Of a stretch of DNA of 38,630 nucleotides, positions 25,941 through 38,630 are shown in pieces. A program made the position numbers and the translations under genes. The stretch comes from a virus, in the IMG/VR virus record IMGVR_UViG_3300049728_000110, positions 1-38,630 of that record; one strand, given 5' to 3'. The first letter of the stretch is position 1; every line of letters starts with the position of its first letter. The notes beneath the pieces are model-generated. The model was not told where the DNA came from and searched no databases. It worked only from the letters and a program-made list of their open reading frames with translations.

Positions 25941-26221
25941 GGGCCGCCCAACCAACTCCCGAATCGCCCACCAGCACAGCGCGGCCCTCATTGTGTGCAG
26001 CGCCTGGTTCGGAGTGGTCGCGGGCCGAAATCCACATGGAGATGGCCAACGCGGCATTCCGGCTGGCATCGCGAAATGAGCACGGCAAAGAGATGGTCAT
26101 AGAGCACCTAAAGAGGGCAATCCAAACTCTCGAAGCACAAACTCCGAACACCGAACTCAGGCGCGCGGGGCACCTGAGCAACGACAAACAGACAGGCGCA
26201 ACCCCGCGTCGCCTGGACTGA
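25937..26221 (+). CDS. Small helical early protein
   Basis: 94 residues. A Pro/Thr-rich N-terminus precedes a helical segment (SRAEIHMEMANAAFRLASRN) and a second helix (MVIEHLKRAIQTLEAQ), then a basic tail. Function unknown. Confidence 0.5.
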   Translation: MRAAQPTPESPTSTARPSLCAAPGSEWSRAEIHMEMANAAFRLASRNEHGKEMVIEHLKRAIQTLEAQTPNTELRRAGHLSNDKQTGATPRRLD

Positions 26222-26227
26222 CTGGTT

Positions 26228-26404
26228 ATGCTGACCGATACTGAAGCCATCGAAGCCGAGAAAACTGCATGGGAGTGGTTTGCCGAGGCACATCCGCACG
26301 AAGCGTATGCAAGCTGGCCGGACCGATTCTGGGAGTTCTTCCACCGCAAGTGTCCGAACCTCAAACGGGAAGAAATGGAAGCCCTCCTTGCTGCTGGTGA
26401 ATAG
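26228..26404 (+). CDS. 58-residue acidic protein
   Basis: MLTDTEAIEAEKTAWEWFAE followed by a Trp/Phe-rich centre (WPDRFWEFFHRKC) and an acidic helix ending EALLAAGE. Starts 6 nt after the previous stop. The high aromatic and acidic content and good codon structure favour a real gene; role unknown. Confidence 0.5.
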   Translation: MLTDTEAIEAEKTAWEWFAEAHPHEAYASWPDRFWEFFHRKCPNLKREEMEALLAAGE

Positions 26405-26434
26405 CATAACAAGTAATTAGGACAAACTGAGCAC

Positions 26435-27191: not shown

Positions 27192-27449
27192 ATGACCAAG
27201 ACTCGCTTCCAACTCCTAAATCAAAAGCGCCTCTGTATGCAACGCCTCCGCGCCGAGAGACGCGGCCAATGCGTGGACGGCCTGCCGAAGCGCCTACGTG
27301 CGCTCCGGGGCGATGGGCAACGCGCGCCGATGCCGACAGGCCGCAGAGACAGGCTTGTGAGCAACGGGCTACTGTCGTGCTCATTTGATGCCATTGGAGG
27401 TCCCGTGCATGGAGATGCGTTGGAAAGGTTGGAGAAGATAACTAGGTGA
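27192..27449 (+). CDS. Small basic protein
   Basis: 85 residues (MTKTRFQLLNQKRLCMQRLR), starting immediately after the previous stop. Rich in Arg (over 15%), with GGPVHGDALERLEKITR at the end. A nucleic-acid-binding role is plausible. A competing frame (27188-27388) covers the same bases, so this call is moderate. Confidence 0.45.
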   Translation: MTKTRFQLLNQKRLCMQRLRAERRGQCVDGLPKRLRALRGDGQRAPMPTGRRDRLVSNGLLSCSFDAIGGPVHGDALERLEKITR

Positions 27450-27469
27450 ACCCGTTGACTCCAATCCAT

Positions 27470-27598
27470 ATGCGTGAACGTCAGCAAATCCGAAGATTCA
27501 ATCGCGCCACCGCGTGGGAACTCTCCCGCTTTCGAGCTGGCGTTCACGCCCGGGTTGGTGGCGCGATTGAGTTTTCAACCCATTGGGAGAGTGACTAA
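27470..27598 (+). CDS. 42-residue basic protein overlapping the interlocked repeat
   Basis: MRERQQIRRFNRATAWELSR, then FRAGVHARVGGAIEFSTHWE and SD. It ends directly before the ATG of the replication gene (TAA-ATG). Because the same bases form three pairs of inverted repeats, the reading frame may be a by-product of an RNA or DNA element. Confidence 0.45.
   Translation: MRERQQIRRFNRATAWELSRFRAGVHARVGGAIEFSTHWESD
27472..27592. repeat. Interlocked inverted repeats A-B-C-A'-B'-C'
   Basis: A, GCGTGAACGTCAGC (27472-27485), pairs with A' (27536-27549), 13 of 14 with the odd pair a G-U in RNA. B, TCAATCGCGCCACC (27498-27511), pairs perfectly with B' (27557-27570). C, ACTCTCCC (27520-27527), pairs perfectly with C' (27585-27592). 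The order means the three stems cross each other, as in a multiple pseudoknot or mutually exclusive hairpins. Start-to-start offsets are 64, 59 and 65. It lies immediately upstream of the replication-protein gene. Confidence 0.8.
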
Positions 27599-28513
27599 AT
27601 GCCACAGCGTTTTCTCAGACCTGGAATCACCAATAGCGATAGGTTCAACTCAGTTGACCTATTCTGCCAAAGCCTTTACATCCGCATCCTAACCAAGGTT
27701 GACGACTACGGGCGATACGATGCTCGCCCGTCAGTTTTGGCCGGTGAGTGCTTCTCTGTATGGAACGAAAAGCACCCCGAACAGCAAATAGATTCCGCTG
27801 CGGTTTCCTGCGGAATCCTGCGCCTTGCTGCGGAAAAACTGATAGCGCTATACGGCTGCGACGGCAAGAAAGTTCTGCAAGTCACGCAATGGCAGGAACG
27901 TGTGCGTGATGGGGCTAAGGAGAAATGGCCTATTTCCGGTAATCCGCTGCGGAATCCTGCGGAATCCTGCGGAATCCTGCCTCCCTCGTCCCCGTCCCCG
28001 CCCTCGTCCCCGCCCTCGTCCCCGCCCTCGTCCACGCCCTCGTCCACGCCCTCGTCCACGCCCTCGTCCACGCCCACGCCTTCGCCCTCGTCCACGCCCA
28101 CGCCTTCGCCCGTGCGCACGACGCCCGAACCCGAACCGGAAAGTGTGTGTGTGAATTTGCCATTGCAGAAGCAGAAGGCTGACTCCCAAGTGGACGCCCG
28201 CTTCAAGTGGCTCGAAGCCGAACTCTGCCGGATGTATAAACGCCCCCGCCCGACCGTTGGCCGCGGCGAGGAAGAGCACCTAGTTGCCGAAATCGCGCGG
28301 CGCCCAGACGTGAGGGCTGAGCTTGCGGAACTGAAAAGCGCCCGGGCCGAAATCGGAGAGCGGTATTTCCCGCAATCACTGTCTGCACTCTGCCGCGATT
28401 GGGACAAGACTCTGGATCGGGCCAGGAATCACGCACCGCCACCAAAGTCGTATAAGGAAAAGTCCATGACTGAGAAAGAGCTTGAGAGACTCGAAAGGAT
28501 GATAGGGACATGA
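27599..28513 (+). CDS. Phage replication protein with low-complexity linker
   Basis: 304 residues. The N-terminal domain (1-125: MPQRFLRPGITNSDRFNSVD, then VDDYGRYDARPSVLAGECF and an ALYGCDGKKVLQVTQWQE segment) resembles the winged-helix N-terminus of phage replisome-organiser/primosome proteins. A Ser/Pro/Thr tract (127-175) encoded by 12-bp repeats links it to a C-terminal helical domain (about 190-304). As in lambda O, the repeats inside the gene may form the origin. No helicase motifs are present. It ends with an ATGA overlap. Confidence 0.65.
   Translation: MPQRFLRPGITNSDRFNSVDLFCQSLYIRILTKVDDYGRYDARPSVLAGECFSVWNEKHPEQQIDSAAVSCGILRLAAEKLIALYGCDGKKVLQVTQWQERVRDGAKEKWPISGNPLRNPAESCGILPPSSPSPPSSPPSSPPSSTPSSTPSSTPSSTPTPSPSSTPTPSPVRTTPEPEPESVCVNLPLQKQKADSQVDARFKWLEAELCRMYKRPRPTVGRGEEEHLVAEIARRPDVRAELAELKSARAEIGERYFPQSLSALCRDWDKTLDRARNHAPPPKSYKEKSMTEKELERLERMIGT
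27951..27980 (+). repeat. Three tandem GGAATCCTGC repeats (possible iterons)
   Basis: Three exact tandem 10-bp copies lie inside the replication-protein gene. A fourth copy is at 27812-27821, flanked by CTGCGGTTTCC. In-gene iterons of the initiator are the lambda/P22 origin design. A 10-bp period equals about one helix turn, placing each site on the same DNA face. Confidence 0.65.
27982..28112 (+). repeat. 12-bp tandem repeats CCCTCGTCC(A/C)CG
   Basis: About ten imperfect copies encode the Ser-Pro/Ser-Thr-Pro linker. The strong C-rich strand asymmetry, continuing directly from the 10-bp iterons, may matter for melting or may simply be slippage-driven linker growth. Confidence 0.7.
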
Positions 28514-31323: not shown

Positions 31324-32037
31324 GTGGGGGCGCAGCACGGCCTAAAGGACGTGACGCTGCTCTTTGCTGACGTGCTCATAGAGGATGAGGAACTGTATCG
31401 CTTCAACGAACAATGCTCGCAAAATATCGGGCTGCCAATCACGCGCATCTGCGTGGGGAAAACTCCGTGGCAACTCTTCCGCGAGCAAGGAATGATCGCC
31501 AACGCCAAATACCCAATCTGCTCGATCTACCTGAAGCGCGAGCCGCTGGACGCATGGCACCGGGCGAACTGCCTGGAGATGGACTCTATAATCTACGTGG
31601 GGATGGATGCCACTGAGTGGAACCGATTAAACGACATGCGCCAAGTAAAGGCCAACTGGCGTATCGAAGCGCCGATGACCGAGGCTCCGCTATGGGATAA
31701 GTGCCGGATGATAGAGGAAACGGAACGGCTCGGAATCCAAATCCCGCGACTCTACCGGATGGGGTTCCCGCACAACAACTGCGGGGGCAGGTGTGTCCGG
31801 GCCGGAATCTCCCACTTCGTCCACCTGTATCGAGTGCTGCCTGACAAATACCTCGAATGGGAGAATGAAGAACAGCAGACCATTGTAGAACTGACGGCAC
31901 GCGGAGTGTCCTCGGCGTGGTTTTCTATCCTGAAAGACCGCCGAGGAGGAACGAGCAGAACAATGACGCTAAAAGAACTTCGCGTCCGAATCGAGGCAGG
32001 CGAGAAATTTGCCCGCAATGCGGAAGGTGATTTATGA
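31324..32037 (+). CDS. PAPS-reductase-like protein with damaged PP-loop
   Basis: 237 residues from GTG 31324. The body is clearly of the PAPS reductase/PP-loop ATPase type: LKDVTLLFADVLIEDEELY at the start, and NNCGGRCVRAGISHF near 155-170 with the conserved Cys pair. The PP-loop itself, S-G-G-x-x-S, is present only in a different frame: ATG 31302 reads MKHIVNFSGGAARPK and then a stop at 31370. A short out-of-frame deletion near 31330-31336 apparently removed the rest of the ATP-binding helix. Without it, adenylation of substrate (sulfur or DNA-modification chemistry) is doubtful. Confidence 0.7.
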   Translation: MGAQHGLKDVTLLFADVLIEDEELYRFNEQCSQNIGLPITRICVGKTPWQLFREQGMIANAKYPICSIYLKREPLDAWHRANCLEMDSIIYVGMDATEWNRLNDMRQVKANWRIEAPMTEAPLWDKCRMIEETERLGIQIPRLYRMGFPHNNCGGRCVRAGISHFVHLYRVLPDKYLEWENEEQQTIVELTARGVSSAWFSILKDRRGGTSRTMTLKELRVRIEAGEKFARNAEGDL

Positions 32038-37852: not shown

Positions 37853-38630
37853 ATGGCAAACACCCTCACGAATCTAATCCCTGATGTTTACGCGGCCCTC
37901 GACGTAGTTTCGCGTGAACTGGTGGGCCTGATCCCCTCCGTCGCCCGCAATGCCACCGCCGACCGCGTGGCGGCGGGCCAAACGCTGCGCGTGTTCCAGA
38001 CGCCCGCCAACTCGGCGGGTGAGGACATTTCGCCGGGCATGGCACTGCCGGCTGCTGCCGACCAGACCATCACCAACAAGACGCTGACCATCGACAAATT
38101 CCGCACCTGGCCGTTCTCTTGGAGCGGCGAGGAACAGTACGCGATGAACACCGGACCAGGCTACCTGAATATCCGGCAGGATCAGATCGCGCAGTGTTTC
38201 CGCACCGCCATCAACGAAATCGAGCTGAGCGGCGTGGTCAAGCTCAAGGCGGGTGCCTCCCGCGCTTATGGAACGGCCAATACTATCCCATTCACCACGA
38301 ACACGGGCGAGGCCGCGCAGATGAAGAAAATCCTCGACGACAATGGCGCTCCGCTAACGGGTCGCTCGATGGTTATTGATACAACCACAGGTGCCCAGCT
38401 TCGCACCCTAACACAGTTGACCAAGGCGAACGAAGCCGGCACCACCATGACGCTGCGCGACGGCGAGATTCTGAACCTCTCAGGATTTTCTATCAAGGAA
38501 TCGGCGCAGGTTGCGTCTGCCACCATCGGCACGGCTTCCGGCGCGACTTCCACCAGCGCGGCTTTCACGGTCGGACAAACGGTTATCCCCCTCGCCACCG
38601 CTGGCACCGGCCTGATTGTGGCTGGCGATG
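37853..38630 (+). CDS. Major capsid protein, N-terminal part (P22 coat-like)
   Basis: First 259 codons of the 391-residue coat protein; the rest continues at position 138. The N-terminus MANTLTNLIPDVYAALDVVS and the following VSRELVGLIPSVARNATADR with GQTLRV match the opening of P22 gp5-type coat proteins. GYLNIRQDQIAQCFRTAINE is the long spine-like helix, and the segment from about residue 215 enters the beta-rich insert. The protein forms the icosahedral shell. It follows the protease/scaffold gene by 36 bp. Start context GTTTTTATGG without a Shine-Dalgarno site. Confidence 0.85.
   Translation, partial: MANTLTNLIPDVYAALDVVSRELVGLIPSVARNATADRVAAGQTLRVFQTPANSAGEDISPGMALPAAADQTITNKTLTIDKFRTWPFSWSGEEQYAMNTGPGYLNIRQDQIAQCFRTAINEIELSGVVKLKAGASRAYGTANTIPFTTNTGEAAQMKKILDDNGAPLTGRSMVIDTTTGAQLRTLTQLTKANEAGTTMTLRDGEILNLSGFSIKESAQVASATIGTASGATSTSAAFTVGQTVIPLATAGTGLIVAGD
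38505..38630. repeat. Terminal overlap, right copy (circular contig)
   Basis: Identical to 12-137. Joining the two ends restores the coat-protein frame (1176 bp in total from 37853 through 535). Confidence 0.9.

Follow-up and report, generated by a model that had tools for sequence, protein, structure and literature searches.

A covarying RNA element with crossed helices and a short open frame ahead of phage replication genes, probably a translation-coupled leader

What purpose is served by a set of interlocked inverted repeats directly upstream of a phage replication gene? In the stretch of DNA analysed here (38,630 nucleotides in all; hereafter, the window), an earlier note had described three inverted-repeat pairs in the order A-B-C-A'-B'-C', had held that chance could not explain them, and had proposed either a triple pseudoknot or a switch between alternative hairpins, acting as a regulatory RNA, a ribozyme-like fold, a replication-origin structure or a captured REP-like element. 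All three pairs are indeed present at the places and in the order described, with A and C matching as claimed (Table 1). The 14 of 14 matches reported for B (27498-27511 with 27557-27570, offset 59) also hold, but the real helix is longer, comprising 20 nt with 18 Watson-Crick and two G-U pairs. The C pairing reaches nine pairs with one G-U, and the spacers between the arms measure 6-8 nt. A fourth crossing pair, A1/A1', had been overlooked; it is weak on its own because it spans only 6 bp, and it is located where better-preserved copies of the element have the loop of a hairpin, P1 (see below). In minimum-energy folds, the local hairpin listed in Table 1 covers part of arm C once B has formed. 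The region is present once in the window.

Table 1. Arms of the element in the window and adjoining reading frames.
Feature	Positions	Strand	Remarks
Arm A1 (AACCCG)	27449-27454	+	partner 27551-27556; from crossing-helix scan
Arm A (A2 of the family)	27472-27485	+	partner 27536-27549; 13/14 paired
Arm B	27492-27511	+	partner 27557-27576; 20/20 including G-U
Local hairpin GTGGGA/TCCCGC	27514-27529	+	inside the B loop; minimum-energy folds
Arm C (ACTCTCCC)	27520-27527	+	complementary to rep Shine-Dalgarno region, 8/8
Arm A' (A2' of the family)	27536-27549	+	partner of arm A
Arm A1' (CGGGTT)	27551-27556	+	abuts B' directly
Arm B'	27557-27576	+	end 22 nt before rep ATG
Arm C' (GGGAGAGT)	27585-27592	+	overlaps rep Shine-Dalgarno-like sequence, 6 nt before ATG 27599
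Short leader ORF, 42 aa	27470-27598	+	ATG at the edge of arm A; stop abuts rep start (TAAATG)
Replication initiation protein gene rep, 304 aa, MPQRFL clade	27599-28513	+	phrog_5810, E 1.7e-10

The combination of A and B clearly exceeds chance, as its crossing-pair score is 25, whereas dinucleotide-preserving shuffling of all 38.6 kb, repeated 60 times, never gave more than 22, and no unrelated crossing pair in the window exceeds 18. An energy-based triple score for the upstream region gave a z of about -11. The argument from chance does not extend to the 8-bp C pair by itself, about 0.1 of which is expected per 120 nt by a rough estimate; what speaks for C is that its partner C' coincides with the Shine-Dalgarno region of rep and that a C pair occupies the same place in L018, L092, L011 and L021.

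We then asked whether related phages carry the same arrangement. A blastn search of the window region against phage records returned nothing, an exact search for the B arms recovered only a near-identical strain (L002/L010), which adds no information, and terminase searches gave no useful relatives. The productive route led through the downstream replication protein first and a sequence pattern second. A profile of the Rep N-terminus yielded 80 loci, a second profile of the MPQRFL clade yielded more, and the same architecture with a different sequence was found in 17 other distinct phage elements, every copy lying on a metagenomic phage contig. Crossing helices of different sequence are located upstream of rep in L011, L013, L017, L018, L021, L024, L092 and L094; in L018 and L092, A, B and C are all plain, with C' touching the ATG or 6 nt away from it. 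Equally high scores were reached by only 0.18% of the 3307 control windows taken from the first 79 loci. In L012, L020 and L032, the element precedes the gene before rep, at 4-11 nt from the start codon of that gene. A pattern built on the sequence common to L020, L032 and L024 uncovered L185 (also L201 and L211), L186, L195, L196, L207 and L215. Most of the 34 matches to the first DNA pattern were chance matches without helix B, and a stricter DNA pattern gave no further copy.

About half of the MPQRFL-clade Rep relatives are without the element, and Rep relatives outside this clade (from human-gut phages and Pseudoxanthomonas) showed no element upstream. A scan of whole contigs for dispersed copies usually found one per genome, and we therefore rejected the REP-like or dispersed repeat that had been suggested earlier. 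The first genes downstream encode MPQRFL-type Rep, another replication initiation protein (L196), HNH endonucleases (L020, L186, L207), a helicase-methyltransferase (L032) or proteins of unknown family; as these are of different kinds, the leader is modular. None of the 4227 covariance models in Rfam matched the element, ribozyme models included, so that a known ribozyme finds no support there, and the element of L032 had no blastn match in phage records.

Some other features of these genomes deserve mention. Compared with the window (26213-26231 and 26225-26410), the near-identical strain L002 has an extra segment of about 250 bp (1165-1415) that resembles an integron gene cassette. Its start codon is supplied by a GTTATGC core, and it contains a short ORF and an attC-like site of 92 nt, the bottom strand of which folds into a hairpin with bulges (-27.8 kcal/mol, z -6.6). 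The window retains the empty site, with a second GCATAAC at 26404-26410, which looks like the gain or loss of a cassette within a phage genome. Positions 38504-38630 of the window repeat positions 1-139 (from about position 11), so that the contig, at about 38.5 kb, is either circular or carries a terminal redundancy; bases 34-46 recur in reverse complement at 1-13, apparently a fold-back artefact of the assembly. A phosphoadenosine phosphosulfate reductase homologue (31324-32037; phrog_424, E 3.9e-29) is encoded between the replication region and the terminase. The rep gene itself contains iteron-like repeats (CTGCGGAATC; 27793-27835 and 27945-27980), a plausible lambda-O-style origin, and encodes a repeat-coded Ser/Pro/Thr linker (27985-28115) in which the window and L002 have different numbers of repeats. 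Tandem palindromes in L015 confused the first count of crossing pairs and were set aside; a long array of this type, in which CCCCGGTCATGGTGATGACCGGGG alternates with GGACGTGTCC-type units, occupies L161 250-1016 and L162 18886-19314 (L015 contig) in a related phage. L102 (158-277) carries a near-perfect 30-nt inverted repeat, GCCTTCCTGAGCACTCACCCGCGTTTCCGG / CCGGGAGCGCGGATGAGTTTTCAGGAAGGC.

The arms of the element follow the order A1-A2-B-(C)-A2'-A1'-B'-(C'). In the better-preserved copies, the first hairpin is preceded by promoter-like hexamers, in most cases at a distance of 33-39 nt (combined P 4e-6). Hairpin P0 has a stem of at least 4 bp, capped in most copies by a GNRA or near-GNRA tetraloop, and P1 is a hairpin with a 7-8-nt loop (TYGGAAG) that pairs with A1' (CTTCCAA), which directly abuts B'. 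A2 is positioned between P1 and B, with its partner strand just 5' of A1', such that A2'-A1'-B' form a nearly continuous 3' strand while A1 and A2 cross B. Helix B comprises about 24 bp, its loop contains GCGCAANCGGT or a variant, and the end of B' is separated from the next start codon by 0-27 nt across the family. In nine copies, the segments GGAAG, GCGCAANCGGT and CCGCTTCCAAC are invariant and either unpaired or kissing; L012 retains the whole anatomy with a compensated A1 (TTGAGAC/GTCTCAA).

A covariance model built from nine copies finds L012 and L021, both outside the model, and misses the window copy. A promoter, the GNRA hairpin P0 and a P1 with its loop were not recognisable in the window copy, which is a divergent one or has lost them. 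It belongs to the family by architecture and position, not by sequence: A2 crosses B, B' ends less than 30 nt from a start codon, and a leader ORF runs through the structure. The relatives repeat both the position of the arm A pairing and its overlap with the leader start codon.

The helices covary strongly in related phages, where the earlier note had proposed a covariation search. Across the concatenated arms of ten copies, 92.1% of the cells are paired and both sides have changed in 32 of 47 pairs. The covariation score is 0.659, compared to 0.224 for shuffled and at most 0.143 for slid arms, a gap that overstates the evidence for the short helices because the arms were hand-picked. We therefore tested A2 separately against shuffled linkers, which gave a Fisher P of 5e-8, with no convincing A2 in L207. 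Pairs of the G-U type are much more frequent than A-C mismatches (49 to 13), so the + strand is selected as RNA; among divergent copies whose arms were found by Watson-Crick scoring only, the ratio is 20 to 6 (P 0.009). The repeats are thus a structured, covarying RNA element of the + strand, in line with the regulatory RNA proposed for this place. The earlier note had also reasoned that homologues conserving the 42-residue protein, with synonymous changes that break the pairings, would point to selection on coding. We observed the opposite, in that the relatives keep the pairings and change both sequence and peptide.

An open frame is nevertheless maintained through the element, while its peptide is not. 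Counting leader starts in the 32 nt before B or the first 8 nt of B, 17 of 18 copies have a frame from ATG or GTG that stays open as far as the next gene or beyond its start, compared with 6.5 expected from shuffles (P 2e-7, an optimistic value because the copies are partly related); the start in L032 falls one nucleotide outside the cut-off. In about 15 of the 18 copies, the leader start overlaps A2 or lies at most 4 nt from it. The junctions with the next gene are typical of coupling, with TAAATG in the window, TGAATG in L020 and ATGA overlaps in L012, L185, L186, L207 and L215. Leader peptides are not conserved across the set; closely related copies have PLPTSGDA-like stretches in common, and two different reading frames cross the RNA in related copies. 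In the window, too, a second open frame passes over the structure, from a GTG at 27474 to 27692, continuing into rep.

We suggest, as a rather likely interpretation, that the element is an mRNA leader that heads a phage replication operon, adopts alternative folds and lets translation of the leader gate the first replication protein. An alternative that we regard as unlikely is control of transcription, in which the element would open the replication operon as an antitermination or attenuation RNA, comparable to HK022 put or a termination switch, and the nearness of a start codon would be secondary. The promoter-like sites, which put the transcript start at the first hairpin, and the different first genes of the operons headed by the element would both fit such a role, but a U-run after B' is missing in the window and most copies, and this role would not explain why the leader ORF stays open or why a start codon follows at a short, constant distance. 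HK022 put RNA is likewise a folded RNA that heads an early operon of a phage, but it consists of two simple hairpins that act on RNA polymerase, and it involves neither a leader ORF nor crossing helices.

It is distinctly unlikely that the element is a ligand- or protein-sensing riboswitch, in which the three segments that stay invariant and unpaired or kissing in nine copies would form a binding pocket, with the helices reporting on its state. The divergent copies, the window included, do not retain these segments, and replication modules or endonucleases rather than a metabolic pathway lie downstream.

Action as a DNA site, be it a replication origin as envisaged earlier, a single-strand initiation site or a recombination site with the repeats as cruciforms or protein sites, appears improbable. 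A single copy per genome beside replication genes is compatible with such a site, as are the different genes directly after the element, as if inserted at its edge. Against it stand the strand-specific excess of G-U over A-C, a covarying hairpin capped by GNRA tetraloops, the leader ORF with its tight start-codon spacing, crossed arms that cannot all extrude, and the location of the iteron-like repeats inside rep. An integron attC site, with nested R''-L''...L'-R' arms and a GTTRRRY end, was rejected, given the crossed arms and the missing core motif, and an invertible DNA segment was considered and dropped. Finally, a short protein-coding gene that pairs with itself by accident or codon bias would account for the open frame and the peptide stretches common to close relatives, but is scarcely credible given covarying helices, otherwise dissimilar peptides and the use of two frames.

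Returning to the translation-coupled leader, we read A and B as alternatives, because two long helices joined by 6 nt would be hard to form together; of the two folds proposed in the earlier note, the strained geometry thus makes alternation likelier than a simultaneous triple pseudoknot. When growing transcripts were folded, A2 belonged to the optimal fold of 13 of 18 copies as long as B' was absent, and B formed after B' in most or nearly all of the 18, window included, although such folds show only that B is more stable, because the program cannot draw A and B together. B is the predicted final stable hairpin in the window. During transcription, A2:A2' would form first and hide the leader start; upon emergence of B', B:B' would displace A2:A2' and free it. 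In the window, the B state may also hold the anti-Shine-Dalgarno arm C in the local hairpin. A ribosome translating the leader would open the structure, end at the replication gene and re-initiate there, such that the first replication protein would be made only as leader translation permits. The A1 loop may still pair with A1' and thereby tune the balance between A and B or, alternatively, may serve as a target for a trans-acting RNA or protein. The Shine-Dalgarno masking step is tentative, because masking by a ribosome had no consistent effect, from copy to copy, on how accessible the ribosome site was predicted to be.

We conclude that the element is an apparently undescribed structured RNA leader, probably a translation-coupled one, that probably decides when a ribosome starts the first replication protein. 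More tentatively, one may see in these copies a new phage RNA leader family that combines mutually exclusive long helices, a kissing loop and sometimes a Shine-Dalgarno mask, all interlocked within an ORF of about 40 codons, and that constitutes a ribosome-gated bistable switch, re-used before several different replication modules as a phage counterpart of plasmid copy-number leaders. This conserved, structured RNA is missing from Rfam, has an unusual, fully crossed topology and heads the replication modules of phages whose replication proteins differ. Should the mechanism hold, these phages would resemble some plasmids in controlling replication via an RNA switch coupled to a leader ORF. At about 155 nt, the element is short enough for direct probing and for reporter fusions, and antisense or superinfection control could readily act on its exposed loop.

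How does the element compare with known leaders? Translation attenuators such as ermC also employ alternative hairpins, which lie in or behind a leader ORF and mask a ribosome site. In erm leaders, adjacent segments 1-4 pair either as 1:2/3:4 or as 2:3 and the peptide stalls the ribosome, whereas the phage element has fully crossed arms and no conserved peptide. In plasmid R1 (IncFII), tap resembles the phage leader as a small ORF ahead of the initiator gene, and its translation is required for translation of repA behind it, a coupling that Blomberg reportedly addressed in 1992 (title listed in PMC10724649); R1 differs in having no interlocked helices and in its control by the antisense RNA CopA.

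The closest working analogue appears to be the repY/repZ leader of ColIb-P9 (IncI-alpha), which, like the related IncB and IncL/M rep leaders, couples a short leader ORF to the gene of the replication initiator. We know of no sequence kinship between this leader and the phage element, and a blastn search with the L032 element against 72,556 plasmid records revealed no homology to plasmid leaders. Translation of ColIb-P9 repZ depends on a pseudoknot upstream of the ribosome site, which an antisense RNA blocks (PMC8383071); titles of primary studies on leaders of this type are listed in PMC10724649. The likeness extends to two features of repY/repZ, since the phage leader frame is coupled to the next gene (open in 17 of 18 copies) and a hairpin loop pairs far downstream, near the ribosome site of the initiator gene (TYGGAAG with CTTCCAA, compensated in L012), although the counterpart in the window has only 6 bp and no clear P1 stem. 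Because sequence kinship is lacking and the antisense block is one described for ColIb-P9, we do not file the phage element as a repY/repZ-type member. Unlike the ColIb-P9 leader, it is phage-carried and stands before several kinds of replication genes, its two long helices cross with A2 on the leader start codon, its pairing loop engages a strand that abuts B', and it bears a GNRA hairpin at the 5' end.
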